The notes beneath the pieces were generated by a model. The model was given only the letters and a program-made list of their open reading frames with translations. It was not told the origin of the DNA and did no database searches. This document shows positions 142-21,676 of a stretch of 21,676 nucleotides of DNA, in pieces (positions within the stretch are counted from its first letter, which is position 1; each line of letters begins with the position of its first letter). The stretch is from Baffinella frigidus (lineage: Eukaryota; Cryptophyceae; Cryptomonadales; Baffinellaceae), in NCBI GenBank assembly GCA_026770585.1, contig MU646377.1:777705-799380 (forward strand), given 5' to 3'. The position numbers and the translations under genes are program-made.

Positions 142-3100
142 CTGTTCCAGGTGGGGGGGCGTTGAGCGTTCTCACGTGAGTAACGACACGGTCCTCACAG
201 CGCGCCGCCGCCCCCTTCTCCCGCGGGCCCCCTGCCGCGTGCGTGTCCACCTGCGGAAACGATTCAAAACATTACGTTCTGGCACAATGAAATTTACCAC
301 ACAATTAGTTTTTACTACTAATAGTGAAATATCTGTGCAGTAATTTTCGTTGCCAGAAAAGTGACATTTTCAATCGTTTCCGGAGTTGAGCGCGGCCTGT
401 TGCCAGGTGGGGGCGAAGTATGTATCAGCTTCTGACCACGTACGTATATATACGTTGTCACACGATTCAGCTTCAGACGCTGCAGTATGTGACCACGTAT
501 ATACACATGAGCTTCTGAAGGGCCCCCAGCCGCGTACGGTGCCTGCACCACGTAGGGGCGATCAGCTCTCTCACCTAAGTACCCACAAAGGTTCCTGATC
601 CTGCTTTTGGTCCGGATACCACTACTCCTGGTACCAGTACAGGAGCTGGTACTAGAACCTTCACCGGGTACTAGTGGCAGTACCTGGCACCGGTACTGGT
701 CCCGCCACAAGTTTTCCTATCAGCCTGTGGTTTCATATGAGCTGGGCTTCCGATCCGGGCTTAGTTTTCCTATGAGCGGGCTCGATCCGGGCTTAGTTTT
801 CCTACGAGCCGGGCTTACCGGCGGCGGCGCGGAGCGGCGTGCCACAGAAAACGGGCGTGCGCGCGACACATCCGGAACCCTTGCTTCAGAAACCCGTGTG
901 TTTCCTTGCTTCAGAACGCTCGACGCGGGCGTCACGTCCCCGCGCGTCTCGTCCGACGCGGGATTTTCGCCCGCGCTGCAGGTTGCGAGCCCCGCCCGCC
1001 CATTCGACTTTTCACGCCCCATCTGCCCATTCGACATTTCGGGCCCCGTCCGCCCGTTGGACTTTTCGGGCCCCGGCCGGCCGGTTGACGCGTTCGACGC
1101 GGGGGCGGCGGCCTCGGCGCTCTCGTCGCGCTCCTCGGTTCTGGGGAAGGATGCGTCGCCCCCTGCGGGTTGTAGCGTTGAAGGGTCAGCCCGCTTCGGG
1201 TTTGGTAGGGGTCAGGGGGGTGCGGCATGGGTTGCGTGTTTGGGGTGTAGGTTGCGCCCCTCCCGTCGCGCGCCTCCTCGCTACCGGGGAACGCTGTGTC
1301 GCCCCCTGTACGGTGTAGGGTGTGGGGGTCAGGTTTCACGGGGTGGGTTAGGTTGAAAACGCTTTACAAAAATGCTTTACAAAAAAGCTCAACCGTGAAC
1401 CGTAAACCGTAAACCCTAGATAGGGTGTAGGGCCTGGCGGACCTCCGCACGAGTCGACCAGCTGCAGATTTAGTAACAGGTTCAGCGTGTGGGTTTCAGG
1501 ATGAAACCGAATTACAAAAAACGCTTTACAAAGAACGCTGTTCGAAAACGTTCAGCTTCAAATCCTAAGGGATCTAAAGGGTGCAGGACCTGGTGAACCT
1601 CCGCACGATAGTCGATCAGACACAGGTCTGATCGGACAGCTGGTAGGTGCCCGCGGTTGTTGATGGTCAAATTGATGGTCCCATTCCGCGGGCAGGAGCG
1701 AAAGGTCCCATCCTTTGGGTGTTTCTGTAGTCCCACCCAGCTGTAATTCTTCAAGAGAGCAGCTCTCTCTCGTTCAGGGTGTAGGGCCTGGCAGACCTCC
1801 GCACGAGTCGATGAGGCGCAGGTCGTAGTCAGACAGCTGGTAGGTCCCCGCGGGCAGCAGCGCTGACGCCTGGCATGGGGTGGGAGAGGTTTAGGATACG
1901 GGGGTTAGGATTCAGGGTTCAGAATTTAGGGTCCCGGGTTCCGGGTTGCCCGCAGAGCGCGGATGCCTGGTGGTGGTTAAGATTGAGAGGTTAGGGTTGC
2001 GGGAGCCAGACAGTGCGCGAGAGGGGTTCAGGGTGCGGGGTTTAGGGTTTAGGGTTTAGGGTTCAGGGTGAATCCAGAATCCAGGTCGTTGGGGTTCAGG
2101 TTTCCAGGGCTTAGGGGTTGAAGTTAAGGGTGTGGGTTGAGAACGGAGGCCTTGAGCTCGGCGAGGAGCTACCCTTTGGGTTTAGGACTCAGAGTTTATG
2201 GTGTAGGGTTCGGAGTGTGTGGTTTAGGATTCAAGTTGAGTGTTCACAGTTGAGTGTTCAGGGTTCAGGGTTCAGCGGCGTGGGTTGAGGGAGGAGGCCT
2301 TGAGCTTGGAGAGGAACCCCCCTTCCGATTTAGGACTCAGAGTTTATGGTTTAGGGTTCAGAGTTTAGTGTTCACAGTTTAGGGTTGAGGGTTGAGGGTC
2401 CAGGGTTGAGGGTTCAGGGTTCAGGGTTCAGCGGTGAGGGTTGACGGAGGATGCCTTGAGCTTGGCGAGAAGCTCCCCAAGGTGGGCCTCCGCGTCGAAG
2501 CACGCATGCACCAGCCGCGCCGCTCCTGGTGTTGTGAGGTTGCGTTTGAACCAAAACCCCACACCCCAAACCATGCACCAGCCGCGCGGCCCCTGCAAGC
2601 GTGCACATGCTTCTGTGTCAACCCGCAAAGCATGCACCAGCTGCGCCGCCCCTGCACACCCTCGCCAAGGTTCAGCGGTAAATACATCAGGCTAGACCCA
2701 GGGCCTAAACGGAAGAGGCCTACACTCTGATTTACCCCCACACATCAGGGTAGGGGTAAATATATCAGGGTTCAGGCCGTCAGGTTAGAGTTAAGGCCTT
2801 AGGGGGGGTGGGCTCTAAACCATGAAAGGGGCTAGGCCGAAACCCCGAGGGGAACTCCCGAGGTTGGCCTCAGCGTCGAAGCACCAGCGGGGCATGGTTT
2901 GGCTTTCCCGTTTAGGCGTTGGGGTTTAGGCCTAGACCCGAAACAACCATTGGAAAAATCTGGGGCCGAGTCCCGAAATCACTGTCGGGCAAATGGGTTT
3001 GGGGCTTAGGGTTTGGGGTTTGGGGTTTGGGGTTTGGGGTTTGGGGTTTGGGGTTTGGGGTTTAGGGTATAGAGTTTGGGCGGTTCTAGACCTGCGGGAG

Positions 3101-5327
3101 GCGCGTCGACAGGACTGCCTCGCTCGTCTACATACCTGGATCGGGGCTCACGGTTGGGGTTTACGGTGCAGGGCTCAGGGTTCAGGGTTCGGGGTTTGGG
3201 GTTTGGGGTTTGGGGTTTGGGGTTTGGGGTTTGGGGTTTGGGGTTTCAGGTTTGGGGTTTCGGGTATCAAATCCAGGGTCTCGAGTTTAGAGATCAAGGT
3301 TTGGGGTTTCGGGTTTTGGATTTCAGGTTTGGGGTTTCGGGTTTCGGGTTTCGGGTGTCGGGTGTCGGGTCTCGTGTTTCATGTCTCGTGTTTCATGTGT
3401 CGGGTCTCGGGTCTCGTGTTGCGTTTTTTCGGTTCTCAGGTCTCGGGGCTTGGTGTTCGGGTGTTAGGGTGTGGGAGTTACCCGAGCGAGGCCTCGATGT
3501 CGTGTTGGTCGCCGAATGGCACGTGCGTCGGCGCGCCGAACGCCGAAACCTGTATACACCATTTTTACTTTTTGTTAACAACCGCCAAATGGAATGTTGG
3601 TTAAGCACACAAATGCTCAGTCCCCAAACCCTAATTCTTTGTTCAATCCCCAAACTCTGAATCCGTGCGTATGCAGGCGTGCGCACATAATTATGTGATC
3701 GAATGATACACCATTCGGAGCCTGATACGTTCTTGACAATTCACCTGGACAAATTGAGCATGCGGAGGTGCACACGGTCTTCAAAAATCCACGACAGAGA
3801 GGGGGCTTAGGGTTCAGGGGTTCGGGGTGCGGGGTTCGGAGTTTGGGGTTCGGGGTTCAGGGTTCGGGGCTAGGGGTTAGGGGTTAGGGGTGAGAGGTTA
3901 GGGGTAAAGGTTGAGTGTTGAGTTTTGAGTTTTGAGTTCTGAGTTTTGAGTGTTGGTTGTTGGGTGTTGGGTGTTGAGGGTCGAGTGTTGAGGGGGGGGG
4001 GGCGATACCGCGGAGACGAACCGCACCGAGTCCCCCGTGTTGACCTGATGTCGGGGTTCGGGGTTCGTCTTGCGTCTTTCGTCTTTCGGGCTTCGGGTCT
4101 ACGTGCAGCGTGTGGAGTTCGTTTTGACACGCTTCACACAGCAGTCATGGCGCACGGCGCTTCAAAAAACGTGGTTGGTGGAGTTAGGGTTCCGAGCGCT
4201 GACCGCGAGCGAGAAACGGCCAGGGTTTCGGGTTTCGGGTGTCGGGGTTCGGGCAGCTACTGCGAGCGAGACGGGGAGAGAGTCGGGGCGGTCCGAGCGG
4301 GAGAAGGGCACTTCCACAAAACATCCACGGTTCACGGCTCTTCAAAAAACTTCTAGGGTTTCGGGTTTCGGGTTTCGTGCTTCGGGGTTCGGGTTTCGGG
4401 TAGTTACCGCAAGCGAGACGGGGAGGGTGTCGGGGCGGTCCGAGCGGGGGGAGGAGGGCACACACCATTCAGGGGCCACGGCTGTCTTCAAAATCTCGCG
4501 GGGTTCGGGGTTACGGCCCTTCAAAACGGTGAGGGTTTCGGGTTTCGGGTAGTTACAGCGAGCGAAACGGGCAACGCGTCAGCGCGGCAGGAGCTCTTCA
4601 AAAACGCTTCGGGTTTCGGGGTTTGGGTTTCGGGTTTCGGGTAGTTACCGCGAGTGAGACGGGTAATGCGTCGGGTTGGTCCAAGCGGGAGGAGGGCACG
4701 ACGCAGATCGACGGCTGCACTGCGGGGTACGGCGGTCGCACCTGCTTGCACGGTTCGGGTTCCGAGTTAGAGAACCGAAACCCGAAACCACACGGATACA
4801 ATCTATCTCGGGAGAACGTGTTTCAGGGGTAGGGCGATCGCACTTGGGGGGGGTTGCTTTCGGGTTACGGCCGTCGGGTTTCAGGTTTCGGGGTTCGGGT
4901 TTTCGGGGTTGAGTTTTTGGGTGTACAGGTTATGCTCCACACTGGGTACGGCGGTCGCACCTGCTCCCGGGGTTCGGGTTCCGGGTTAGAAACCATAAGC
5001 CCTAAACCCTAAACCAGGCTGATAGAATCTATCTCCGGAGAACGTGTTTGAGGGGTACGGCGGGGGTCGCGTTCCGGGTTACAAAACGCCGAAACCCGAA
5101 ACCCGAAACCCGAAACCCGAAACCCGAAACCCGAAACCAGGCTTCGGGTTTCAGGTGTCCAGATTATGCTCCCGCGGGAGCACATGCCGTGAGGACGGGG
5201 GATTTAATCTCAGAACATAACACAATCTGTCAATAAGTACACTCGTCTAAGCCTTGGTTTTAATTCAGGGTTTAGGGTTCAGGGTTTAGGTTTTGGGGTT
5301 TAGGATTTAGGGTTCAGGGCTTAGGGT

Positions 5328-5373
<46 letters not shown>

Positions 5374-7625: not shown

Positions 7626-7652
7626 ATGTCCGAGCTCGAAGTCGACGCCCAG
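7626..7652 (+). CDS. SMU1: SMU1 exon 1
   Basis: Codes MSELEVDAQ (residues 1-9), ending CAG before donor GTAGGT, phase 0. The ATG is preceded by GCC. A tiny first exon is supported because exon 2 continues directly with the LisH motif. Confidence 0.85.
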
Positions 7653-10600
7653 GTAGGTCCCCGGCGCCCAGGGTGCAGGGGGTCCAGAGCTGCGTGCCGG
7701 CTGGACGGAATCCGGTCGCCTTCGCTCCGTGGGTCCCGCGGCCGAGAGTGCAACAGACAACAAGCACTGCCCCTGGAAGTTCATCCGCAGGATTACAAAA
7801 GTATCGACACGACTCTCCTCGGAGCCCTGGAGGCGGAGGATGTGTGATGCCCAGAGAGGGACCGGCGGGGCGCGGGCGGATCTCTGCAGACGGAATCCAA
7901 ACGCGGGTGTCTGACGCCAACTGCCCCACGTTCAGGATGTCGTGCGCCTTATGCTCCAGTTCTGCAAGGAGAACGGGCTCAAGGACTCCCTCAGAACTCT
8001 GCAGACAGAGTCGCAGGTCCCCTCAGCCCCCGCTTTCCCTAAAGGTGAGCGCGCAGCAGGTCGCGAGGCGCTGTGACCACCAGTGCCACCTGTTCCCTCC
8101 CATGCACCCCGCACTCTGCCACAAAATACTTTCATAGCAGGAACTCCACTACAAAAGCCGCAACCAAAATGCATTTATTTTTCGAAGCGCACCCTGCGTC
8201 CAGCACCACCTAGCGCCCTCCGCCGGCACCTAGCACCCTCCGCAGTCCCACCCCCGCTGTGGTGGGTAGGTGGTGAGAGATACATGGCGGATGTGTCAGC
8301 ATTAGCACCGGTCTCTCATTTGGGACTCGGTGATGCCGATCGGGCTGCTCCTGCCTCATGATCCTCCTCAGCTGGTCAGCGCGCGCTGAGTTTTTTGGCG
8401 TTTAGTCCCTAGTCTTACAATACAAGGCCTTCACGGAAGGGAATACGTGGTGGCCGCGTTGGTTTCGATCCGACATAAACGCACGTTTCTCTCCTGAGGC
8501 GTTTGGCGGATCCTGAGCAGGTGGCGCTCAACACGGTCGAGAGCGTAGAGCGCTTCCTCACAGACGTTCAAACAGGCAAGCGCCCTACCCCCCAACCCCC
8601 AACCCCAACCATTAAACCTAACCATGAACCCTGAACCCTGAACCCTGAAGCGCCCGCTCCCGCGCCACCGCCACGCGGCCCTTTCGAGAGGCTGAAGTTG
8701 ATCAACTTAAGAGACTGAATTTCATCAACTTGAGAGACTGAAATTGCCAACGTATGGTACCTCAACCCTGCACCCTAAACCCCAAACCCCTACACCCCAA
8801 TCCCCAAACCCCACCCCCCAAAGCGTAACCCCGCGCGCGCCGGCAGGCAACTGGGACGTAGTGCTCACCGCGTGCCAGTCTCTCCAGCTCCCTACCTCCA
8901 AGCTCCAGGTTCGCACACATGAAGTGTATTACATGCCTACCTCTGTCTCAGCCTATTTGGATTTATCAATTTGGTGAGCCGGGGCCGGGAAAGAGCCCGG
9001 GCTCCCGACCTGAAAGCTCCAGGTCCGCGCACCCACTCGAGGCTGGAAGAGGGACTACATGTTGATTTTTTGCCAGTTTCTTCCTGAAAGTTGTAATCGC
9101 GACCTCGAAGCTCTAGATTCCCAGGTCTTTATCAGTCTATTTGGGCTCACCCGTTTGGTGAGCGCGGGCTCTTTCCCTCTCCAAGTCAAGTCGAGAAAAG
9201 TCAGTCAACCCGAGCGAGGCAGAGCTAGGCACTGCATCACCTGGAGTTTGGTACGGCTCCTACTCCAGTAGGTAGCTGGAGTAGGGAGTCCTAGCTCTGC
9301 CTGAGTTTTATTCTGGCTCGTCCTAAAGGCTTTCTATTCGCCCTTTTGTATTGGATATGCATTCTTAAATAGTGTCAAGGACGAGCCAGAATAATACTCA
9401 GGCAGAGCAAGGAGTTGGTACTAGTGCGGCGGGGGTTCATCCGTGGCCGCTTCCCAGTAGCGGCTGGGGGAGTTTATCCGGGGAAACCTATTTTTCTTTC
9501 ATTTGATTCCAATGAAAATTACTACACGAATGATTTAATATTACTAGTAAAAACGAATTGTGTAGTAATTTTCATAGCCATCAAATGAAAGAAAAATAGG
9601 TTTCCCCGGATAAGAGTTACCTTCGCGACATGTGCGGTGATGGGCGCACCGGGAAGCCCTCGCCATGGCTGACCGACCCGCCCTCTGCCCGATATTTGAC
9701 GCGCCCTCTGCCTCATTGTTTTGAATAGGCCCGTTTCTAGCGCCGAGTGGACATGGGATAAAGGTCTCTAGGTATGCTGCCTCATAACCTGTTGTTGTTA
9801 ATACCTCGCAACCTCTATCTCTCTCTGTCTCTCGCGGCAGGCCATGCACAAACAACACCTCATAACCTGTTGGTAGCAATAAGGGTCTCTCTCTCTCTGC
9901 ATAGTACGTTATCAATACCTCATAACCTCTCTCTCTCTCTCTCTCTCTCTCTCGTGGCAGGCAATGTACGAGCAGATCATCTTCGAGCTCCTCGAGCTCC
10001 GCGAGGTCTGCTGCCCCAGCCCTCCGAAGTGGACCACATCGTGAATCTGGCTATCTGGATTGTAGGCGTTTTTGGGGGGCATTGGCCTCAAGAATTCGGG
10101 GCTTGCCTGGCGAAAATCGAGGAAGATAAAACCGGATTTTGGTCCACTTCGGTGGGCTAGTGGTTGCCCTGTGCCCTAAACCACAAACAACAAACCCTAA
10201 ACCCTAAACCCCAAATCCCAAACCACAAACCACAAACCCCAAACCCTAAGAGAGCTAAGAGAACTCCGCGGTCTGCTACCATAAACCCTAACACCCCGGA
10301 ATTTCAGAAGTAGTAACGCGGAAGTCAAATGGTGGAGATCTCACGTGCAAACCCCCAAACCCTACCCCCTAACCCCCACACCCCAAACTCCAAACCGCAA
10401 ACCCCAAACCCCACACCACAAACCCCAAACCCTCAGCCCCAAACCCAAACCCAAACCCTCATCCCTAATCCCTAATCCCTAATCCCTTATCCCCAAACAC
10501 CAAACCCAAATCCCTAATCCCTAATCCCTTATCCCCAAACACCAAACACCAAACACCAAACACCAAACCCGAATCCCGAATCCCTGCGGCAGACGGACGC

Positions 10601-13600: not shown

Positions 13601-16600
13601 TGAGCAGAAGCGTAGCTCTATACGAATTTGAACATAATAAATATATCTTCATAATAATCTTAACAAACGAATCTAACATCACAGGGTTCTTAACAAACAG
13701 ACGGCACGTTTCAGGGGCAGGGGTTCTTCAATCGTAAATTTCGCAATTTGTAGATCCGTGGGGGTGCAGGGGCACAACAGTGGCTCAATTTTTGAACTGC
13801 TGGATTCCGCAGGGGCACGGCGGCGGCGAAGCCCGACGAGGCGGATGAGTACCCCTCCAAGAGCGGCCAGATGATCAAGTTCGGCAAGAAGTCGCACGCG
13901 GAGTGCGCCGCCTTCTCGCCCGACGGACAGTACCTCGTCTCCGGTCCTGCCCTCCCTCTAATTAATAATGATATGGCAAGGTGTGTTGTACCGGGGACGG
14001 TGCGTATATTAGATGTAGGGACTATACATACATATAGCGGAAAGAGGAAGGGGCGTATAATAGATGTAAGGACGATACAGGAAGCGTTGTGTACCAGGAA
14101 AGGGGGGTACAACAGGTTGTAGTGTGAATGATTGTAATTTAGATGATCAAGTGCGGCAAGAAGCCGCAAGAAGCCGCATGCTGAGTGTGCCGCCTTCTCC
14201 CCGGACGGACAGTACCTCGTCTCAGGTCCTGCCCCTACTGAAAACCGGTGTTTTGAAACCCTGAACCTTGAATCCTAAACCCTAAACCTTAAACCCTAAA
14301 CCCTAATCTCTAAGCCCCAACCCCCAACCCCTGAACCCTACACTCTGCCTCTTTCCCGCGCGAAAGTTTGCGCCGTTTCGAAACCCTAAACCCTAAGCCC
14401 TCACTCCGAAACCCCAAACCCTGAACTCCTACACCCTGCCTCTTACCCTAAACCCTGAACCCTACACCTTAGTTAGACCTTGGACCCTAAACCCTAAACA
14501 CTAAATCATGCACCCTTAACCCTAAACCCTAGACCCTAAACCCTCGACCCTAAACACTAAACACTAAACACTGAATCCGTAACCCTAACTAAACCCGAAT
14601 CCCTAAACCCTAAACCCTAAACCCTAAATCCTCAACCCTAAATCCTAAACCCTAAACCCTACACCCTAACCCAGGGACGATCGACGGGTTCGTGGAGGTG
14701 TGGGACTACGAGACCGCGAAGCTCCGCAAGGATCTCAAGTACCAGGCCAACGAGGCACGCCCCTCAACCCTAAACTCTAAACCACAAATGTTTGACCACA
14801 ACAAGTTTTGACCAGACCTCGAAAGCTTCCCTGAAGATGAACCGTCACCCTAACCCTTGACCCTGGAAGCAGGAGTTGATGATGCACGACGCCGCAGTGA
14901 TATCGCTAGCGTGGTCCAAGGACAATCCTTGCCCCTAAACCCTGACCCTAACCCTAAACCGCAAACCCCCATCCCTAAACCCGCAACCCCTAACCCCTAA
15001 CCCCACGCGTGGGACCTGAGCTCAAACCTAGCCCTCAACCCTGAATGCTCGCCCCTGATCCTGAAACGTTTCACTGAAAGCAGGAGTTGATGATGCACGA
15101 CGACGCAGTGCTATCGCTAGCGTGGTCCAAGGACTCAGAACTCCTCGCCACCGCCGACCAGACCGGCAAAATCAAGGTCCGTTTCACCTCGGATTTGTTT
15201 CCCTCCAGTTTAGGGTTTAGCTCGCGAGACGTTTGAAGGTTGTTTTTCCAGTTTCGTCTCTCCTCTCTCTCCTCTCCTCTCGCGCGCTCTCTCTCCTCCA
15301 TCCCCTCTCTCTCTCGCTCTCTCGCTCTCCTCTCCCTCCCCCCCTCTCCCTCCCTCTCTCTCCTCTCTCTCCCCCCCTCTCTCTCTCTCTCATCTCTCTC
15401 CTCTCCTCTCTCTCCCCCGAGCGGGAAGTTTCCAAGCGTTGGATAGATGAGAACAACACACCTGTGCGGTTCCCGGCGGTGTTCAGCCAAGGGAAATGGT
15501 CCAATCAGCTGCAGGAAACAGGTGCAGGGCTGTGTTGGCAGATGGGTGTTGACTTTCGACATCTGTCAACAAAAGTGGACGGCATGCGGGCCTTGCTCCG
15601 CCACCAGTCCGATGAAAGTCGCCGCTTTCTGCATCGCGTGCTTTGCACTAGTGGCATTTCCCTCTCTCGAATGTCATTTCTCTCTCGATTGTCATTTCTC
15701 TCGCTAAGGTCATTTCTCTCTCTGATTTCATTTCTTTCTCTCATGTCATTTCTCTACACTCTTTCATGTCATTTCTCTCGCTGGTGCAGGTTTGGAAGGT
15801 GCGGACGGGGCAGTGCGTGCGCCGCTTTGACAAAGCTCACGCCCAGGGTAACCTCTAAACCCCTAACTCCAAACACTAAACCCTAAACCCTAAACCCTAA
15901 ACACCTACCCCAACCCCTAAACACCAAACCCTGAACCCTAAACCTCAAACCCTCAACCCTAAACACCTACCCCAACCCCTAAACACCAAACCCTGAACCC
16001 TAAACCTCAAACCCTCAACCCTCAACCCCAAACACCAAACCCAAAACCTAAAAACCAAAACCTAAAACCAAAACTCCTAAGCCCCACCCCCTAATCTCTG
16101 ATTCCCGAAAATTTGTGGGACTTGACTTACCACGGCGCACCCCTGCGGGATTTGGGGTTTGGGGTTTGGGGTGTAGGCCCTCAACCCTTACCCTCAGCCC
16201 TAAACCCCCAACCAGGTACATCCCTAATCCCTAAACCTCTACCGCAGGGATCACACGCCTCTGTTTTCACGCGATTTCCACCTGTACCTCCGAACGATGA
16301 GGAAACCCTAAACCCGAAACCCTAATGGAATATTCGCGGTTACGCAGGGGTTAACTGCCTCTGCTTTTTACAACTTCAAGGTTGTGGGTGTTGACTTACT
16401 GAAACGTTGTGGGTGTTGACTTACCGCAGGGATCACGTGCCTCTGCTTTTCACGCGACTCGACGCAGCTCTGCTCTGCCTCGTACGACGCGTCATTGCGC
16501 ATGCACGGGTGCTCCCGAACCCCGACACCGGAACACGGAACACGGAATCCATAACCCGAAACACGGAATCCGAAACCCGAAACCCTAAAGCATGCACGGG

Positions 16601-19600
16601 TACCCCCGAATCCCGGAATCAGAGACACGGAATCCGAAACCCGAAACACGAAACCCCAAACCGGAAACACGAACCATAAAGCATGCACGGGTGCCCCCGA
16701 AACCCGAAACACGGAATCCGAAACCCGAAACACAAAACCCTGAAGCCTGAGCCCGAAACCCGAAACCCTGAAATCTAATCCCTGAACCCTGAGCCCGAAA
16801 CCCGAACCCCTGAAACCTAATTCCTGAACCCTAACCCCTAATCCCTGCACCGTAGTCCCTAAACCTCTAATCCCTCCACCTTAAACCCTAACCCTGCACC
16901 CTAATCCCTATTCTGTCGGTACCTCAACCGCTTCGCCAACCTCTCAAGAGAAGAGAAGCATTATTTGAAACACCCCTACACCCCAAACCCTAAACCGCAC
17001 CCTCACCGCTAACCGCCAACCGCTAAACCCTCTATCCCTCAAGTGGCGAGGCCGTCAAATTTGACGGCCAAGAGGTCCTAGGCAGATCCTGGGGACCTAC
17101 GGTAGGGCGTATGAGCCTACTCGCCTCTGAAGGGGTATCATACTGAAAGATATACCCTAAACCCTGCAGGCTCAAGTCCGGGAAGATGCTCAAGGAGATG
17201 CGCGGACACACCTCGTACGAACCCCACACCCTCAACCCCAAACCTCAAAACCCTAAACCCTAAACCCTAAACCCTCAACCCTGAACCCCCACACCCCCAA
17301 ACCCTAAACCTCAAACCTCAAACCTGAAACCCCAAACCCGAAACCCCGAACCCTGAACCCTAAACCCTGAACCCTGAACACCCTGAACCCTGAACCCTAA
17401 ACCCTGAACACGAAACCCGGAACCCGAAACCCGAAACCCGCAACCACAAACCACAAACCACAAACCACAAACCACAAACTCGGAACCCGATCCCTACACC
17501 CGAAACCCCAAACCCCAAACCCTAAACCCAAACCCCAAACCCCAAACTCAGATACATCAACCACTGCACGTACACACTGGACGGCCTGCGCATCGTCTCC
17601 TCGGGCAGCGACGGCTGGGTCAAGGTGCTGCACTAATCATTCAATTACACACATAATTTAATTATACGCATTACTCAATTATACATATAATTTGATTAAA
17701 CACATGATTTAATAAGACACATAATTTAATTATGCACTCATTTTTTTGTCCGCTACCAATCGGGGGCAGGGTTTTTGTACCAGGGAAGGGCTGTACATGT
17801 AAATTACGTAGGGGCATTGGCTCTACATGTGGTGTTGATGCATCGTCTCCTCGGGCGACGGCTGGGCCAAGGTGCTGACCTCTCCTTTGTCAATAGTTGT
17901 AGCGCCCACTACAACTCAAGGTCCTAACCTCTCCTTTATTCATAGTTGTAGCGCCCACTTCATTACGGGGGGCGTTTTTTTGTACCAGGAGAGGGCTGTA
18001 CATTTAGTTGTATGGGTTATACGTGTCCTGTTTGTTCATCGTCTCCTCGGGCAGCGATTAAGGTCCTAATCCCCCCCCCGCTACAACGCGCTGGGGGGGG
18101 CGGGTCACCAAGCTACCCCCACCCCCCCCCAGGTTGCATACCCTCCCGAGGTGGCCGTCTTCGATCAACACTTAACGCGAAAAAAAATTGACTGTTGTGA
18201 ACTCTCAACCCTCAACCCAAACACTAAACACTAAACACTAAACACTAAACCCTTAACCCTTCATCCTAAACCCTAAACCCTAAACCCTAAACCCTAAACC
18301 CTAAACCCTAACCACGAAGCCCGAAACCCTAAACCCTAAACCATAAACCATAAACCCTAAACCCTTAACTCCAAACAATGTGCTGTCTTCAGGTGTGGGA
18401 CCCGAAGACATCGGAATGCGTCTCGTCGTTCCGCCCCAACCCCGCTGGGTGCTCCTCCCCCTCCACCGCAACACTACACTCTATCCCCTTAACCACACGC
18501 GCTGCTCCCCTCGCGCATTTGTGGGCGAAGCCCCAACCCCGCCGGGTGAGCCACCTTACTCACCCCTACGGAACGACCTTTGTTGAAATCAAGAGTCTTT
18601 GACTGGCACTGGAAACCTTTCTGATGTTCCGCCGCAACCCCATTGGGTGAGCCACCTTTGCTCGAAACCCGACACCCTAAACCCTAAACCATCCCCGCTG
18701 GGTGCGCGACCTTTGCCCTAAACCCTAAACCCTAAACCTTAAACCCTGAACCCTGAACCCTGAACCTTCAACCCTATACCCTAACCCCTGAACCCCAAAC
18801 CCTAAACCCTGAACCCTAAACCCTGAACCTTGCACGCCCTAACCCCACTGGGTGAGCGGCCTATGCCAACTTAAGTCACATCAATGTTAGTCGGCTCAAC
18901 GCCACTTGACCAATACATCGTCTGGTTACTCATATCACAAGTCCTTGATTGATACATCACGACTTTTCTGGCACTAAAGGGTTGAGCGAGTGGCATTTTT
19001 GGTTGCCAGCATGGCCACCACATATTCCCTCACAAGGAGGCTAAACACAATCCCCAAACCCCAAACTCCAAACCCCCAACCCCAAACCCCAAGCACCAAA
19101 CCCCAAACCCCAATAACTTTCCTACACCCTACACCCTAAACCCTAAACCCTAAACCCTAAACCCTAAACCCTAAACCCTAAACCCTAAATCCCAAACCCC
19201 AAACCCTAAACCCCAAAACCCAATCCCCAATAACTTTCCTAAACCTTAACTATTAAACACTCAACCCCAAACAGGCAAGAGATCCCAATCAACTGCTGCT
19301 GCTGCTTTTCCAAGTCAGAGCAAATCGTGGTGTGCGATCGCTCGTCCACCGCCTACGTCATGACTCTCCAGGGCCAGGTATCTCCATCAATTTCATAATT
19401 TTAACGAATAAATTTGTACATATATGGCAACGAAATTTACTACACAGGTTTTTTACTATTTCTAGGATATTCCAATCGTGTGTAGTAATTTGTTTTGCCA
19501 GCCAAGTCGGGGGAAATCGTCAAGTGCAGGGCCAGGTGTCTTCATCTGCCGAAACGAAGATACATCCATACGTTTCTGGCAAGAAACTTACTACACACGT

Positions 19601-21676
19601 TTACTACACACGTGCAAATCGGATTCCGTGTTGGCCTAGGCTGGCTGTTCCACTTAGCAGCCACCGGGGCCTTCGATGATGTGTCAATCTGAACGATTCT
19701 GATACAAATTGCAATTCATTTCAGGGTGAGGGGCTTGAAATGACTCAAGGAAATCCGGTGAAGATAGAACTCGGGCGCTGCTAGGTGGTTTGAGCGAGAT
19801 CACGCGCATGGTCGCACGCAACCGTTTTGTCTGAGGAGGCACCGTTCCCATACAGTCTCCTCTTTTCCTGGTTAGCGAAGAGCGCAAACGGGGCCACCAG
19901 CCCATGGGACTTGGCGCGTCAATCGCCTCGTCCTCTGTCCGTGGATTCACGCCCTATATACTCCTAGCCCAGTCCCAGAGTATTTGAGCTCACCAATTTG
20001 GTGAGCCCAGCTCTTTGGAGCGGACGCCTATATACTAAGTGCGTGTGGCATGTCAACGGCGGTTGTGCTAGAGAGAGCGAGGCCTTTATTACTACCAACA
20101 CGGCCGCCATGCACCCCCGCCTGGGCCGTGTCTGGGCAGGGCCTCGTGGCTTCCTGTAGATGGTCCTCGTGGTTTTTAAGTCCTTTTTGGCGTCTAGGTT
20201 CTAGACTGACAAGGCCTTCACAGAAGGGAATCCATGGTGACCATGTTGGTTTGGATCCGTACAAAACGCACGTTTCTGTCCTGAGCTTTTGGCGGGTCCT
20301 GAGCAGTTGGAGCTCAACACGGTCGAGACCTCATAAACCAACGTTTCTTCCTGCAGGTGGTTCACGGAAGGGAATACACGGTGACCGCGTTGGTTTCGAT
20401 CCGTAACAAACGCGGGGTTCCTCCGGCTGCAAGCTTTCGGTCGCTCTAGACTACTGGATTTGATCTGTCAACGGACTTTTCGCGCTGCAGGTGGTGCGCG
20501 CGATTTCCAGTGGCAAGAAGACGGGCGGTGACTTCCTGAGGTCCGGCCATCCCGCCACCCCTCCAACTGTTTTCAAGTGCTCTCTTCGCCGCTACTACTA
20601 GTATTATTGTGTCGACCGGCTATGTATATACCTCCTTAGTACAACTTTGTGGTGGTGCTGGAGCGTGTAAACCCCAAACCCTGAACCCTGAACCCTAAAC
20701 CCTGAACCCCAAATCCTAAACCCTGAAGTAAACCCTAAACCCTAAAACCGAAAACCCAAACCCGAAAAACGAAACTCTAAACTCTAAACCCTAAACCTTC
20801 CACCCTAAACCCTACACCTTCCACCCTACACCCAAAACCTTAAACCCTAAACCCTAAACCCTAAACCCTAAACCCTGAAGCCTAAACCCACAACCCTCGA
20901 CAGTGCGTGCGTGAGCCGCATGGGGACGTGGCTCTACTGCCTCGCCGAGGACAACGTGAGCACCCTAACCACGTTCGTTCTGGGTTTGGGTTGGGTTCGG
21001 TTCGGTTCGGTTGGGTTGGGTTGGGTTGGGTTGGGTTGGGTTGGTTTTCATTTGAATCCGAAGGCCACCCGGAACCCTGAGAATGAAATCAGCCCTGGAA
21101 TTGAATTAGCTGGACCCTCGACCAATTGAGTTTCGGTTCGATTTGATACGAAGCCCATCCGAATGCGTGAGCCGCATGGGGAAGGGGCTCTGCTGCCTCG
21201 CCGAGGACAACGTGAGCGACCCCCTCATTTCGGCGTCCTTCGATTTTGATCCGAAGCCCATCCCGAACCCCGAGAACGAAGTTAGCCCTGAACCTTGGAA
21301 ATGCATAAGCTGGATCCTCGACCAACTTAGTTCATCTCTTCGACGCATGGGAGCCAGGCCTCAGCGTGGGAGCAAATCGCTGTTTTCAATGCGCTTGATT
21401 TGTACTGGAGGTTGCCGGAATCCGGCGATGGTGCTCACAACCTGTGTGTGCGCAGATGGGCTCGTAAGGAGGGGGATTGGTTTGAGCAGTAAGTAACGGT
21501 GTCTCGTTTGGTCTCGCAGATGATGCCGCGCCTCAACCCTAAACCCCAAACCCCAAACGCGGGGTACTACCCCAGTTGGTAGTGATGAACGTCTGTCCTT
21601 TGGTTTCGCAGATGATGTACGTGTTCGCGACCAAGGACGGAAAGCTGGAGCACATCGTCCAGACCCACGAGAAGGA
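7626..21676 (+). CDS. SMU1: SMU1-like WD40 spliceosomal protein, 20 exons, 3' end outside the window
   Basis: Twenty exons joined in phase give 483 complete codons plus two bases of the next. The protein has a LisH motif (about residues 7-38, exons 1-3), a CTLH-type region (about 39-95, containing [11 protein letters not shown] and [13 protein letters not shown]), the hallmark linker [20 protein letters not shown] (about 156-175), then WD40 blades from about residue 205 ([67 protein letters not shown]). SMU1 is a nuclear component of the spliceosomal B complex that acts with RED/IK. The family is about 510 residues; the visible part ends in THEKD, leaving roughly 27 residues outside, so no internal exon appears missing. 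Exon identity is seen directly; function is family knowledge. The start ATG lies in GCCATGT and opens [10 protein letters not shown], the expected N-terminus. DCAF15-like diverges from the same intergenic region. Confidence 0.96.
7936..8016 (+). CDS. SMU1: SMU1 exon 2 (LisH)
   Basis: Residues 10-36, starting [20 protein letters not shown], the LisH helix pair. Acceptor TTCAG before G; donor CAG then GTCCCC. A better-looking GTGAGC lies at 8045, but using it would add PSAPAFPK and break phase with exon 3; the chosen donor joins ...TESQ to VALNTVES exactly as in the family. Confidence 0.88.
8391..8543 (+). repeat. Source copy of intron 2/exon 3 dispersed segment
   Basis: Runs from TTTTTTGGCG through AAGGCCTTCACGGAAGGGAA and GTTGGTTTCGATCCG to the exon 3 acceptor and its first 23 bases. 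It recurs at 20184-20328 and partly at 20359-20421. The rest of intron 2 (8045-8390) shows TAGCACCCTCCGC-type short repeats only. Confidence 0.82.
8521..8575 (+). CDS. SMU1: SMU1 exon 3
   Basis: Residues 37-54 ([18 protein letters not shown]) plus one base of Gly55. The donor is GC (CAG then GCAAGC). The next exon also starts GCAA, so the intron is flanked by a direct CAGGCAA repeat. Confidence 0.9.
8584..8830 (+). repeat. C-rich heptamers and GAGACTGAA repeat, SMU1 intron 3
   Basis: CCCCAACC/CCCTGAA-type repeats at 8586-8650 and CCCCAAA-type at 8765-8822 flank a tandem repeat of TTGATCAACTTAAGAGACTG / TTCATCAACTTGAGAGACTG (about 8697-8745). Confidence 0.8.
8847..8908 (+). CDS. SMU1: SMU1 exon 4 (CTLH region)
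   Basis: Completes Gly55 and codes [20 protein letters not shown] (56-75), the CTLH-type segment. Acceptor GGCAG, donor CAG then GTTCGC, phase 0 exit. Confidence 0.92.
8896..9127 (+). repeat. SMU1: Donor-edge copies of SMU1 exon 4
   Basis: CCAAGCTCCAGGTTCGC at the true donor is echoed by GAAAGCTCCAGGTCCGCGCA (9012-9031) and TCGAAGCTCTAGATTCCCAG (9105-9124). The intervening TTTGG(T/G)...GGTGAGC palindromic pieces also repeat (8957-8986, 9137-9166, and again near 19986-20010). Confidence 0.7.
9295..9407. mobile_element. Inverted repeat, possible MITE
   Basis: CTCTGCCTGAGTTTTATTCT and ten more bases (9295-9324) are matched on the other strand at 9378-9407 with one mismatch in 30; the loop is 53 bp. 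A related AGGCAGAGCTAG lies at 9217. No target duplication identified. Confidence 0.65.
9474..9613. mobile_element. 140-bp inverted-repeat element with GAGT target duplication, copy B
   Basis: Perfect 34-bp outer arms start TTATCCGGGGAAACC (9474-9507 and 9580-9613); the arms extend to about 55 bp with mismatches. GAGT flanks both sides (9470-9473 and 9614-9617). No coding capacity. The inner part carries the AAAATTACTACACA family core. Lies in SMU1 intron 4. Confidence 0.85.
9775..9912 (+). repeat. SMU1: Acceptor-edge copies of SMU1 exon 5 region
   Basis: ACCTCATAACCT + CT tract + CTCTCGTGGCAGGCAATGTA at the true acceptor is copied at 9780-9855 as CTCATAACCTG...CTCTCGCGGCAGGCCATGCA. A further CCTCATAACCTGTTGG + CT tract lies at 9859-9900. 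The upstream copy has a plausible acceptor but no open frame match. Confidence 0.8.
9961..10005 (+). CDS. SMU1: SMU1 exon 5
   Basis: Codes [15 protein letters not shown] (76-90), matching the conserved YEQ-LELIELRE block. A long CT tract leads to the acceptor GTGGCAG. Donor GAG then GTCTGC. Confidence 0.93.
10018..10158. mobile_element. Inverted repeat beginning 13 bases after the exon 5 donor
   Basis: AGCCCTCCGAAGTGGACCA (10018-10036) is matched by the complement of TGGTCCACTTCGGTGGGCT (10140-10158), 18 of 19 bases. A 141-bp non-coding unit adjacent to the SMU1 exon 5 splice donor. No clear target duplication. Confidence 0.6.
10165..10585 (+). repeat. C-rich heptamers, SMU1 intron 5
   Basis: CCCTAAA, CCCCAAA, AACCACA, TCCCTAA and ACACCAA variants run through 10165-10575. 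A donor-edge copy of exon 5 (GAGCTAAGAGAACTCCGCGG + TCTGCTACC) lies at about 10252-10281, and a copy of exon 6 interior (CTGCGGCAGACGGACGCGAT + GCTCCGCATG) at 10584-10613. Confidence 0.8.
10690..10910 (+). repeat. TGGTCAAA short repeats around SMU1 exon 6
   Basis: CGGTCAAATGACGAACTGGT, CGAATGACAACTGGTCAAAT upstream of exon 6, and TGTTTGACCAGTCTGAGATT / CGTTTGACCTGTCTGAGATT downstream. The 10920-11290 stretch of intron 6 has no recognisable gene; a CTCCCTATGTCTGG...CCTACCGTAGGATCC dyad is the only structure noticed, plus a C(16) run near 11299. Confidence 0.6.
10747..10817 (+). CDS. SMU1: SMU1 exon 6
   Basis: Residues 91-113, beginning [20 protein letters not shown], then two bases of Arg114. 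Acceptor AAATAG, donor CG then GTACCC. The frame stays open to 10938, but the family continues with exon 7 sequence, which places the donor. Confidence 0.92.
11364..11481 (+). CDS. SMU1: SMU1 exon 7
   Basis: Completes Arg114 and codes residues 115-153 ([20 protein letters not shown] through AKSLSTE). Matches the family block RYxxLExLxxRxxxDxxEAY. Acceptor AAAAG, donor GAG then GTACCA. Confidence 0.92.
11514..11627 (+). repeat. Dispersed repeat copy 2
   Basis: Starts CCCGGATATTTGG and includes CGTGACCAAAATTGCTGACT, TTTTGGCGTGTTTACTTAGA, AACAATCCAACAGTTAAG and TAGTGTTCCGAATGG. Begins 33 bp after the SMU1 exon 7 donor. A third, inverted fragment (TTTTGGCGTGTTTCCTGGGA on the minus strand) lies at about 5608-5636. 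Confidence 0.75.
11862..12003 (+). repeat. 24-bp minisatellite, ATATCC type
   Basis: About four to five diverged copies of a unit near GAAATATCCGTAGGATGTTA + TATA, ending CTCCGGATATTTCTTGG. CTCCGGATATTTCTTCGTGG recurs at about 12296-12315. Lies in SMU1 intron 7. Confidence 0.8.
12480..12580 (+). repeat. Perfect CCCTAAA array with polarity flip
   Basis: About nine uninterrupted AACCCTA heptamers (12510-12573), directly preceded by a short G-rich GGGGTTTAGG block (12462-12500), forming a head-to-head junction at GGGGTGCACCCTACACC. Confidence 0.9.
12776..12882 (+). CDS. SMU1: SMU1 exon 8 (conserved linker)
   Basis: Residues 154-188 ([20 protein letters not shown], then [15 protein letters not shown]) and two bases of Arg189. 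This is the most diagnostic SMU1 segment. Acceptor CGCAG after CCCTAAA repeats; donor TTCAG then GTGCCT. Partial copies lie on both sides. Confidence 0.95.
12829..13545 (+). repeat. SMU1: Tandem donor-side copies of SMU1 exon 8 plus intron start
   Basis: Unit 1 (12829-12987) starts in the exon at GTGGCAGCAGCACCAGGGCC and runs through the donor, TTATCGCGAAGGATACACTT and TCCTCCGGTA. Unit 2 (13152-13407) repeats this with an about 95-bp insertion after AGGTGCC. Unit 3 (13408-13545) repeats it with decay. The inverted-repeat element is inserted between units 1 and 2. Confidence 0.9.
12988..13147. mobile_element. 160-bp inverted-repeat element with GGTA target duplication
   Basis: Perfect 57-bp arms, 12988-13044 and 13091-13147, start TTATCTCAGATAAACAC and continue inward with few mismatches. 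GGTA flanks both ends (12984-12987, 13148-13151). The arms are nearly identical, so insertion is probably recent. It sits in a tandem copy of the exon 8 donor region; the sister copy (TCCTCCCTTAGTGGCAG at about 13399-13414) lacks it. No coding capacity. Confidence 0.9.
13813..13943 (+). CDS. SMU1: SMU1 exon 9 (start of WD40 domain)
   Basis: Completes Arg189, then residues 190-232: an acidic linker [20 protein letters not shown] followed by [20 protein letters not shown], the first WD40 blade. Ends one base into Gly233, donor GTCCTG. Confidence 0.94.
13975..14130 (+). repeat. GTATAxTAGATGTAxGGAC short repeats, SMU1 intron 9
   Basis: GCGTATATTAGATGTAGGGA and GCGTATAATAGATGTAAGGA, with flanking GTACCRGG and TACAAC pieces, occur twice. 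They resemble the GTACCAGG...GCTGTACAT repeats of intron 15. Confidence 0.6.
14141..14235 (+). repeat. SMU1: Copy of SMU1 exon 9 3' half with donor
   Basis: AGATGATCAAGTGCGGCAAG and GCCGCCTTCTCCCCGGACGG + ACAGTACCTCGTCTCAGGTC copy 13870-13949. A 12-base AAGCCGCAAGAA-type duplication and a TGA break the frame, so it is an exon fossil. Confidence 0.9.
14255..14672 (+). repeat. Degenerate CCCTAAA array, SMU1 intron 9
   Basis: Over 400 bp of CCCTAAA with CCCTGAA, CCCTACA and CACTAAA variants, running into the exon 10 acceptor (CCCTAACCCAG). TACACCCTGCCTCTT is repeated at about 14338 and 14428. Confidence 0.9.
14675..14754 (+). CDS. SMU1: SMU1 exon 10
   Basis: Completes Gly233, then [20 protein letters not shown] and KYQANE (234-259), a WD blade. 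Acceptor ACCCAG directly after CCCTAAA repeats; donor is GC (GAG then GCACGC). Confidence 0.94.
14865..14924 (+). repeat. SMU1: Copy of SMU1 exon 11 5' half
   Basis: GGAAGCAGGAGTTGATGATG, CACGACGCCGCAGTGATATC and GCTAGCGTGGTCCAAGGAC copy the exon 11 acceptor and first 17 codons with few changes. It reads in frame [17 protein letters not shown], then hits a stop after four more codons. C-rich heptamers follow (14930-15010). Confidence 0.9.
15084..15176 (+). CDS. SMU1: SMU1 exon 11
   Basis: Residues 260-290, [20 protein letters not shown] then [11 protein letters not shown], phase 0 on both sides. Acceptor AAGCAG, donor AAG then GTCCGT. A partial copy lies 219 bp upstream. Confidence 0.95.
15240..15420 (+). 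repeat. CT-rich low-complexity tract, SMU1 intron 11
   Basis: About 180 bp of nearly pure CTCTC(C/T) with C runs. It produces long spurious Ser/Leu-rich or Arg/Glu-rich frames. The stretch 15421-15650 between it and the minisatellite is unique and unassigned. Confidence 0.9.
15652..15789 (+). repeat. TCATTTCTCTC minisatellite ending at the exon 12 acceptor
   Basis: About eight copies of a 15-17-bp unit near ATGTCATTTCTCTCTCG. The last copy reads straight into CTGGTGCAG, the exon 12 acceptor, so the repeat forms its pyrimidine tract. Confidence 0.9.
15790..15847 (+). CDS. SMU1: SMU1 exon 12
   Basis: [19 protein letters not shown] (291-309) plus one base of Gly310. The acceptor GTGCAG is the end of a CATTTCTCTC minisatellite. 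Donor GTAACC. Confidence 0.94.
15855..16090 (+). repeat. CCCTAAA array with a 60-bp higher-order repeat, SMU1 intron 12
   Basis: CCCTAAACACCTACCCCAAC...AACCTCAAACCCTCAA occurs twice (about 15893-15955 and 15957-16019), then degenerates to AAAACCTAAAAACC. Confidence 0.88.
16100..16427 (+). repeat. SMU1: Acceptor-edge copies of SMU1 exon 13 and local repeats
   Basis: CCGCAGGGATCACGTGCCTC + TGCTTTTCACGCGA at the true exon is copied as CCGCAGGGATCACACGCCTC + TGTTTTCACGCGA (16243-16275) and ACGCAGGGGTTAACTGCCTC + TGCTTTTTACAA (16343-16374). GTTGTGGGTGTTGACTTAC is a tandem pair (16381, 16406). GGGATTTGGGGTTTGGGGTT at 16147-16170 is an opposite-polarity block. Confidence 0.85.
16430..16508 (+). CDS. 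SMU1: SMU1 exon 13
   Basis: Completes Gly310, then [20 protein letters not shown] and SLRMH (311-335), plus two bases of Gly336. Acceptor CCGCAG, donor GG then GTGCTC. Acceptor-edge copies lie upstream and donor-edge copies downstream. Confidence 0.94.
16520..17040 (+). repeat. SMU1: CCCGAAA/CACGGAA repeats and donor-edge copies of exon 13
   Basis: GCATGCACGGGTGCTCCCGA at the exon 13 donor is copied at 16590-16609 (GTACCCCCGA) and 16681-16700 (GTGCCCCCGA). Between and after are CCCGAAA, CACGGAATCCGAAA and CCCTAAT-type repeats. Confidence 0.85.
17170..17214 (+). CDS. SMU1: SMU1 exon 14
   Basis: Completes Gly336, then [14 protein letters not shown] (337-350) and two bases of Ser351. Donor GTACGA is chosen because it joins in phase to TAC ATC AAC CAC in exon 15 (SYINH). 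Confidence 0.92.
17225..17550 (+). repeat. C-rich heptamers filling SMU1 intron 14
   Basis: CCCTAAA, CCCTGAA, CCCGAAA and AACCACA variants fill almost the whole 337-bp intron, up to CAAACTCAG at the exon 15 acceptor. AACCACAA is repeated five times near 17443-17477. Confidence 0.9.
17552..17624 (+). CDS. SMU1: SMU1 exon 15
   Basis: Completes Ser351, then [20 protein letters not shown] and GWVK (352-375). The acceptor CTCAG is followed by A, one of three exons not starting with G. Donor AAG then GTGCTG; reading on would meet a stop at 17634. Confidence 0.93.
17638..17745 (+). repeat. AT-rich ACACATAATTTAATTA minisatellite
   Basis: About five copies of a 21-25-bp unit near ACACATAATTTAATTATACG in SMU1 intron 15, starting 13 bases after the exon 15 donor. 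Strikingly AT-rich in a GC-rich setting. Confidence 0.88.
17770..18070 (+). repeat. SMU1: Tandem copies of SMU1 exon 15 donor edge with intron sequence
   Basis: GCATCGTCTCCTCGGGCAGC (exon 15) recurs as GCATCGTCTCCTCGGGCGAC + GGCTGGGCCAAGGTGCTGA (17840-17878) and TCATCGTCTCCTCGGGCAGC + GATTAAGGTCCT (18037-18068). TTTTTGTACCAGGGAAGGGC (17773) / TTTTTGTACCAGGAGAGGGC (17977) and ATAGTTGTAGCGCCCACT (17893, 17941) repeat with them. Confidence 0.85.
18205..18375 (+). repeat. CCCTAAA array, SMU1 intron 15
   Basis: ACACTAA, then about seven near-perfect AACCCTA units (18265-18310) and CATAAAC variants, ending about 25 bases before the exon 16 acceptor. The 18070-18200 stretch has C runs and no gene. 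Confidence 0.9.
18393..18448 (+). CDS. SMU1: SMU1 exon 16
   Basis: [18 protein letters not shown] (376-393) and two bases of Gly394. Acceptor TTCAG, donor GG then GTGCTC. Four donor-edge copies follow in the intron. Confidence 0.92.
18529..18868 (+). repeat. SMU1: Four donor-edge copies of SMU1 exon 16
   Basis: CCCAACCCCGCTGGGTGCTC at the donor recurs as CCCCAACCCCGCCGGGTGAG (18531), CGCAACCCCATTGGGTGAGC (18635), CATCCCCGCTGGGTGCGCGA (18689) and CTAACCCCACTGGGTGAGCG (18839). Three copies carry the better donor GTGAGC. CCCTAAA heptamers separate them. Confidence 0.87.
19045..19270 (+). repeat. CCCCAAA and CCCTAAA array, SMU1 intron 16
   Basis: CCCCAAA variants at both ends enclose about eight perfect CCCTAAA units (19134-19190). 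CAATAACTTTCCTA is repeated (19111, 19228), marking a higher-order unit. The 18870-19045 stretch is unassigned. Confidence 0.9.
19275..19377 (+). CDS. SMU1: SMU1 exon 17
   Basis: Completes Gly394, then [20 protein letters not shown] and [14 protein letters not shown] (395-428). YVMTLQGQ is strongly conserved. A run of four cysteines comes from a TGC repeat. Donor GTATCT. Confidence 0.95.
19427..19502. mobile_element. Short inverted-repeat element, ACTACACA family, copy C
   Basis: TGGCAACGAAATTTACTACA at the left is matched by the complement of TGTAGTAATTTGTTTTGCCA at the right. The interior ATAGTAAAAAACCTGTGTAG (minus strand) resembles copies A and B. Lies in SMU1 intron 17. A further scrap, TTACTACACACG twice, lies at about 19586-19611. 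Confidence 0.72.
19499..19548 (+). repeat. SMU1: Internally deleted copy of SMU1 exon 17
   Basis: CCAAGTCGGGGGAAATCGTC + AAGTGCAGGGCCAGGTGTCT fuses exon 17 CCAAGTCAGAGCAAATCGTG with its end CAGGGCCAGGTATCT, skipping about 45 bases. It lies at the edge of inverted-repeat copy C. The 19620-20180 stretch has no recognised gene or array. Confidence 0.8.
20184..20328 (+). repeat. Distant copy of the intron 2/exon 3 segment in intron 17
   Basis: Matches 8391-8543 through AAGGCCTTCACAGAAGGGAA, GTTGGTTTGGATCCG and CCTGAGCAGTTGGAGCTCAA + CACGGTCGAGA. The last part is exon 3 acceptor plus exonic sequence, with the acceptor AG-G changed to AG-T. Confidence 0.82.
20359..20421 (+). repeat. Third, partial copy of the intron 2/exon 3 segment
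   Basis: TTCACGGAAGGGAATACACG and GTGACCGCGTTGGTTTCGAT + CCGTAACAAACGC match 8431-8483 closely, without exon sequence. Adjacent to the second copy, so a local duplication followed the long-distance one. Confidence 0.8.
20491..20540 (+). CDS. SMU1: SMU1 exon 18
   Basis: [16 protein letters not shown] (429-444) plus two bases of Ser445, matching the conserved SSGKxxGGDF. Acceptor GCTGCAG, donor GTCCGG. Confidence 0.94.
20665..20900 (+). repeat. CCCTAAA array filling SMU1 intron 18
   Basis: CCCTGAA, CCCTAAA and CCAAACCCGAAAA variants with a CCTTCCACCCTA repeat, and about five perfect CCCTAAA units at 20842-20875, reaching within a few bases of the exon 19 acceptor. Confidence 0.9.
20904..20955 (+). 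CDS. SMU1: SMU1 exon 19
   Basis: Completes Ser445, then [17 protein letters not shown] (446-462). The acceptor GACAG is followed by T. Donor AAC then GTGAGC. A whole-exon copy with an open frame follows at 21163-21214 but lacks an obvious acceptor. Confidence 0.9.
20990..21052 (+). repeat. TTGGG / TTCGG pentamer array
   Basis: About ten units of GGGTT or CGGTT at 20991-21044 in SMU1 intron 19. G-rich on the sense strand and five-base, not seven-base, so different from the dominant repeat. Confidence 0.9.
21163..21335 (+). repeat. SMU1: Whole-exon tandem copy of SMU1 exon 19 with following intron
   Basis: TGCGTGAGCCGCATGGGGAA and GGGGCTCTGCTGCCTCGCCG + AGGACAACGTGAGC (21164-21217) copies exon 19 and its donor without an indel, reading [31 protein letters not shown]...GAACCCCGAGAACGA matches 21055-21090 after the first exon 19. 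No acceptor AG immediately precedes it. Confidence 0.88.
21510..21560 (+). repeat. SMU1: Acceptor-edge copy of SMU1 exon 20
   Basis: GTTTGGTCTCGCAGATGATG (21507-21526) copies TTTGGTTTCGCAGATGATGT at the true exon, then becomes CCGCGCC and CCCTAAA/CCCCAAA repeats. The decoy acceptor is intact. Confidence 0.88.
21612..21676 (+). CDS. SMU1: SMU1 exon 20, cut by the window edge
   Basis: [20 protein letters not shown] then K and two bases of the next codon (463 on), matching the conserved GKLE...HEKD. Acceptor TTTCGCAG followed by A. Confidence 0.93.
   Translation, partial: MMYVFATKDGKLEHIVQTHEK

Follow-up and report, generated by a model that had tools for sequence, protein, structure and literature searches.

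Internal duplication within genes has reportedly been surveyed by Gao and Lynch. In potato RdRp, a tandem duplication runs across a splice junction and the splicing signals are inherited from the parent copy, and a second tandem duplication of 83 bp within an intron leaves the gene structure unaltered (PMC4974935). Tandem duplication has been reviewed as a mechanism of intron gain, and the same source attributes direct repeats at gained Daphnia introns to staggered break repair (PMC3443670). Interstitial telomeric sequences are described as being inserted during break repair, sometimes with flanking duplication (PMC2246262).

The locus described here resembles these systems in part. As in potato RdRp, tandem duplication appears to cross splice junctions, but there one duplication built a new intron and an exon segment (PMC4974935), whereas here many duplications seem to lengthen existing introns and to leave unused partial exons at about one third of all junctions in the two genes. 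The intron-gain model likewise derives extra donor and acceptor sites from local duplication, but it places duplicated exon-internal sequence in a new intron (PMC3443670); what is seen here is the lengthening of existing introns rather than a new one. Short direct repeats are also reported near intron borders, where they pair the two end regions of an intron over 4-30 bp (PMC11782384), whereas here an exon edge pairs with an intron interior over up to ~150 columns. As far as the accessible literature goes, the unit event is already known, and what is new is its density, its serial arrays and the accumulation of unused decoys in two genes on one contig. In agreement with the preliminary suggestion that such a density had not been reported, the searches made returned no recognised description of partial exon edges at about one third of junctions.

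The window (the whole stretch of 21,676 nucleotides analysed here; 54.8% G+C, no N) carries two eukaryotic genes placed head-to-head and transcribed divergently (Table 1). One encodes SMU1, a spliceosome-associated WD40 protein, and its product was matched to the solved structure of human SMU1 (best chain 6q8f, E 2.2e-186). The model is identical over its full length (100% identity and coverage) to P0001, a public SMU1 protein of 512 aa from JGI, except for one additional Glu in P0001, which is regained when the end of exon 10 is set at 14754 rather than 14751. P0001 is intronless because its source contigs are at most 2280 bases long; since it comes from separate contigs and agrees with the model, the 19 SMU1 splices are supported. 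The second gene is named from a match to Pfam DCAF15_WD40 in one of 8 scanned reading frames (E 1.8e-4, under the Pfam cut-off), and a search with its 337 residues returned no homologue at E ≤ 0.001, so that the borders of its exons (X1-X10) are less sure. Across both genes the introns have 25 GT and 3 GC donors and 28 AG acceptors; a TTTAGGG telomere and GC donors are both described for dinoflagellates (PMC11453091).

When the window was compared with itself after masking of heptad and other short-period arrays, strong direct repeats were found to link exon edges with neighbouring introns. Exons queried with 40 flanking bases on either side gave 30 direct matches and one inverted match at 30 bits or more, while dinucleotide shuffling of all non-exon sequence, repeated 40 times, gave a mean of 0.05 per shuffle; the inverted match (E6/intron 2, 30.1 bits) was taken as chance, the shuffle maximum being 31.9. 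Alignment of exon sequence only, at a score of at least 40, placed copies in 13 of the 56 exon-intron pairs that are adjacent and in 0 of the 784 that are not, which bears out the preliminary observation that introns hold copies of the adjoining exon edges. Lowering the threshold to 28 gave 16 adjacent pairs and a single non-adjacent one (E3/intron 17, score 37), with antisense matches in 0 adjacent and 1 non-adjacent pairs. The comparison with shuffled exon-intron pairs that the preliminary description had proposed was run within these two genes, and the observed sum of scores was attained in 0 of 20,000 permutations. With junctions and 40 bases on each side as queries, the own intron outscored all 27 others with a score of at least 28 at 19 of 56 junctions (12/38 in SMU1, 7/18 in the DCAF15-like gene). 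These belong to SMU1 exons 4, 6, 8, 9, 11, 13, 15, 16, 17, 19 and 20 and to DCAF15-like exons 3, 4, 8, 9 and 10. The DCAF15-like exons are those originally listed, and the SMU1 list stands apart from exon 5, which fell under the threshold, and exon 3, whose copy is real and lies ~12 kb away in intron 17 rather than nearby. At six junctions a foreign intron also scored at least 28: three reflect true copies, detected from their wrong side or at a distance (E3, E19 5', X9 5'), and three look like chance (E7 5', E10 3', X10 5').

The copies are local as well as adjacent. Direct repeat pairs lie less than 1.5 kb apart in 29 of 35 cases, local pairs being spaced by 59-637 bases, and a complete exon intervenes in none of 29 pairs. 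Among the matches to exons with 40-base flanks, copies of 5' edges occupy the upstream intron and copies of 3' edges the downstream intron, E3 excepted. Masking concealed one further copy, that of the exon 13 3' edge, which opens a 91-base tandem array. The region highlighted in the preliminary description begins at 1262, within the copy of X10.

Table 1. Genes, exon-edge copies and heptad-rich intron stretches of the window (exons numbered for SMU1, X-numbered for the DCAF15-like gene)
Feature	Positions	Strand	Evidence or remark
SMU1 gene	7626..21676	+	exons E1-E20, E20 truncated at window end; open frame matches P0001
DCAF15-like gene	819..7380	-	exons X1-X10 modelled; weak Pfam DCAF15_WD40, open frame; may extend below 819
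Exon 4 3' edge + donor	9001..9032	+	self-comparison, junction alignment
Inner exon 6, in upstream intron	10584..10613	+	self-comparison; short of splice site
Exon 8 5'-part fragment	12434..12457	+	self-comparison; ends before splice site
Exon 8 5' edge	12661..12703	+	41 exon bases identical, AG acceptor 12661-12662
Exon 8 3' edge + donor, copy 1	13151..13210	+	95% over 60 nt
Intron portion of exon 8 unit	13304..13403	+	84% to 12884-12983
Exon 8 3' edge + donor, copy 2	13407..13467	+	
Exon 8 3' edge, copy 3	13506..13540	+	14 nt exon, 21 nt intron
Exon 9 3' edge + 9 nt intron	14141..14234	+	
Exon 11 5' edge + acceptor	14867..14923	+	96%
Exon 13 5' edge	16247..16274	+	
Exon 13 5' edge, second copy	16343..16371	+	
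91-bp tandem array, 2.9 units	16499..16767	+	unit 1 begins 10 nt within exon 13, repeating its 3' edge
Exon 15 3' edge + donor	17840..17877	+	
Exon 15, second copy	18037..18057	+	damaged splice edge
Exon 16 3' edge	18530..18548	+	
Exon 16 3' edge, second copy	18626..18649	+	
Exon 16 3' edge, third copy	18835..18854	+	28.3 bits, weakest listed
Exon 17 3' edge + donor	19527..19546	+	junction alignment
Intron 2 end + exon 3 5' edge, distant copy in intron 17	20184..20328	+	152 columns, 83%
Exon 19 3' part + donor	21164..21222	+	48/52 nt; intron part next at 21268-21332
Exon 20 5' edge with acceptor	21504..21525	+	junction alignment
X10 5' edge + acceptor	1260..1308	-	
X9 3' edge, second copy	1422..1457	-	with 21 nt intron
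X9 3' part + donor + 21 nt intron	1578..1656	-	
X8 3' edge, second copy	2145..2174	-	
X8 3' edge	2287..2322	-	GT changed to CT
X8 5' edge	2572..2595	-	
X8 5' edge, second copy	2630..2654	-	
Inner X8, in upstream intron	2857..2884	-	short of splice site
X4 3' edge + donor	4255..4311	-	
X4 3' edge + donor, second copy	4402..4461	-	
X4 3' edge + donor, third copy	4551..4580	-	
X4 5' edge + acceptor	4944..4965	-	homology continues into ~48 nt upstream intron
X3 5' edge + acceptor	5640..5676	-	
Heptad-rich intron examples	12502-12574, 17220-17547, 18207-18369, 5267-5422		

No antisense copies were found at an exon-only score of at least 40 in the 56 adjacent or the 784 non-adjacent pairs, an absence that would suit reverse transcription of the gene's transcripts and their reinsertion into the gene. 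The adjacency of the copies is unexpected on that route. Moreover, 0 of 28 exon-exon junctions were found among the copies (junction 24-mers, at most 4 mismatches), whereas 11 of 56 exon-intron boundaries recurred in the same type of search, indicating that the source was not spliced mRNA. Unspliced RNA is a possible source of copies; reverse transcription overall strikes us as exceedingly improbable.

For the anatomy of the copies a set of 30 was picked by hand, which does not include E3, E17 or E20 or the array at the 3' edge of exon 13, and in which the E9 copy starts at 14142, one base from its listed start. A false GT or AG is retained in 25 of the 30 (GT in 16/18 copies of 3' edges, AG in 9/12 copies of 5' edges). 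The preliminary statement that every copy spans a splice site applies to most of the curated copies: three of the 12 5'-edge copies end before the junction and so carry no false AG, one copy has a damaged edge, and one (X8, at 2290-2322) has CT in place of GT. With near-identical false splice sites present in its introns, the splicing machinery must pass over many decoys. Each copy keeps between 14 and ~75 exon bases, and no copy of a whole exon with both splice sites was found in the window, the nearest being that of exon 19, which keeps 48 of 52 nt and lacks the acceptor. All copies lie within introns, and SMU1 has no extra coding segment relative to P0001.

Identity between copy and exon ranges from complete (all 41 exon bases in the exon 8 5' copy) to ~80% (X4, X10), a spread that suggests events of different age. 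Differences fall at codon positions 1, 2 and 3 in 19, 21 and 40 cases, copies of one exon not being independent and E4, E13 16343, E16 18530, X10, X8 2572 and X4 4551 contributing no differences to these totals; an excess at position 3 fits an exon under constraint paired with a copy released from it. Some copies also differ from their exon by indels. These features bear on whether the copies are an artefact of assembly or stem from the collapse of paralogues or haplotypes, a concern raised by the fact that the locus is a single contig: the copies are partial, they diverge from their exons by 0-20%, in some cases with indels, and P0001, which comes from separate contigs, matches the exons. We accordingly give an artefact hardly any weight.

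We consider it probable that short tandem duplication has been frequent at this locus, with selection sieving out events internal to exons and splice-spanning copies persisting as decaying decoys. Under such a scheme, short stretches of DNA, in pairs ~60 to 640 bases apart, would be tandemly duplicated again and again throughout the introns. Where a duplication ran across a splice junction, the intact exon would still work and the extra partial edge, with its splice site, would join a longer intron; once intronic, the edge would decay neutrally. Duplications inside exons would be removed by selection. Further rounds would copy the copies and so build small arrays (exon 8, exon 16, X4, X8, X9), and the original splice sites would remain those used by the splicing machinery.

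Were a copy made by tandem duplication, the intron that separates it from the exon edge would be expected again on its far side. Judged against intron stretches that are unrelated, 16 of the 30 curated copies, these 16 belonging to 9 exons, have further non-heptad intron sequence in common with their source (p ≤ 0.02 for each; 0.6 copies expected by chance), although these 16 are not independent (both exon 13 entries are one match, and the entries for X3 and one X8 copy comprise 10-13 bases). In intron 8, for example, the shared stretch spans 100 columns (84%), and in intron 19 it spans 65 (74%). Shared intron stands out clearly for SMU1 introns 8, 15 and 19 and, in the DCAF15-like gene, for J3, J4 and J9; the signal is weak at X3 and at one copy of X8. 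Direct, local and adjacent copies, of which these share further intron, support the proposal made at the outset that local duplications running over splice sites have repeatedly lengthened the introns here and left decoys in them.

Against tandem duplication stand the 14 curated copies in which no non-heptad intron shared past the edge was detectable, the distance of 12 kb to the exon 3 copy, and the exon 9 copy, which ends after 9 intron bases and resembles an insertion with long flanking duplication. Staggered double-strand-break repair would insert filler and fill in long overhangs, leaving a splice-spanning stretch on both sides of the filler. This arrangement, in which an edge is duplicated around a spacer of unrelated sequence and no more of the intron is shared, is seen in the copies of exons 9, 11 and 6 and in those of the exon 8 5' edge, which could be filler insertions with long flanking duplication. 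Break repair sits poorly with the curated copies that do share intron beyond the edge, and telomere-like filler, present in 10 of 30 spacers where 11.7 were expected, is not enriched there. Duplicates of 30 to 80 bases also seem long for staggered break repair, and we regard it as an unlikely general explanation. A variant in which telomerase supplies the filler with flanking duplication was rejected on the same spacer counts; the window and the published interstitial telomeric sequences (PMC2246262) both have telomere-like internal repeats, but here the heptads show no preference for the space between edge and copy.

The distribution of local repeats bears on whether tandem duplication need be directed at junctions. 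Local repeats cover 24.1% of exon bases within 50 bases of an edge (525/2176 unmasked) and 0.9% of those further in (5/562 unmasked), and 17.2% of intron more than 150 bases from an edge (1224/7103 unmasked). General duplication with selection against exon-internal damage would account for most of this distribution. Because intron interiors are repeat-rich too, the preliminary reading of the copies as splice-site duplications can be refined: duplication need not target splice sites, and was probably not aimed at them. Intron within 50 bases of a junction has 7.1% in local repeats (124/1749 unmasked), below the interior, where a simple model predicts otherwise; faster, two-sided decay of introns and masking of heptads may contribute to this low cover.

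Mobile elements, either introners or MITE-like palindromes, might instead have captured exon edges and carried them into introns. The exon 3 edge and 129 nt of intron 2 do occur together in intron 17. Introns 4 and 8 contain near-perfect palindromes, and in introns 9 and 15 the copies are preceded, at 51-64 bases, by a motif of TGTACCAGG type. The two ends of one intron also resemble each other, in direct orientation, more closely than permuted ends do (p 0.022; 28 introns). However, the exon 3 copy is the single non-adjacent direct copy found, and the ends of the 28 introns gave no target-duplication (p 0.28) or inverted-repeat (p 0.19) signal by permutation. Repeats shape the introns both here and in introner-bearing genomes, and palindromes occur here too, but the locus differs from the published introner elements (PMC9860276, PMC7789003) in this lack of terminal signals and in that its exon-derived repeats are gene-local. 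Capture by mobile elements thus appears very improbable.

The introns contain other repeats. Telomere-like heptads (CCCTAAA, CCCTGAA, CCCGAAA, CCCCAAA) fill many introns of both genes and follow the sense strand of each (346 CCCNNAA vs 44 TTNNGGG in 28 introns); they look like a phenomenon separate from the edge copies. Sense CCCTAAA is free of AG and GT, and its reverse would give an acceptor-like TTTAG in each unit. A scan for the heptad pattern returned 20 stretches among genome contigs, in bacterial records, and no match among viral contigs. At 12988-13147 lies a near-perfect palindrome with 70-bp arms, apparently bounded by GGTA on either side and without a counterpart in the sister unit near 13403; it looks like a MITE that came in once the unit had been duplicated. 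Further palindromic stretches occupy 9474-9613, 19403-19501, 279-378 and 7456-7505, the first three with a common TACTACACA core at no more than one mismatch. A dispersed repeat of 93 bp (83%) occurs at 6304-6396 and 11530-11621, in one intron of each gene. The TGTACCAGG-AAGGG motif is found at 14090, 17776 and 17981 and may belong to an element associated with the copies.

The SMU1 protein has close public relatives: P0002-P0005 (MMETSP, JGI, ENA) are 80-84% identical to it among the best 120 of 1533 matches, and in an SMU1 tree P0001-P0005 form one clade (SH-aLRT 99), apart from the dinoflagellate Effrenium and from P0008. Among the matches listed, Effrenium SMU1 has 48% identity and P0008, labelled Prorocentrum minimum, 60%; P0008 groups with Pyramimonas in the tree, and this EukProt entry is likely contamination. 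A joint clade of P0001-P0005 with Effrenium and P0163 was neither shown nor rejected (p-AU 0.298). A scan of viral contigs found no SMU1 relative. The predicted SMU1 of P0005, an ENA protein, seems to contain a retained intron immediately ahead of VSSGSDG. The exon 15 copies in the window start only a few bases from that point, which may be coincidence.

Looking beyond these two genes, we tentatively raise the possibility, for which we would claim less than even chances, that the introns of this lineage lengthen genome-wide by continuing junction-spanning tandem duplications, and that the spliceosome finds the true sites through information outside the junction, for example exon definition or splice-inert, sense-oriented CCCTAAA-like arrays. 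If general, the process would provide a plain mutational route to intron growth that could be dated copy by copy, and would show how the material from which new introns and exons can arise builds up. It would also furnish natural experiments on splice-site choice, in the form of paired junctions, identical or nearly so (for instance those sharing the 41 identical exon bases at exon 8), of which only one is used.
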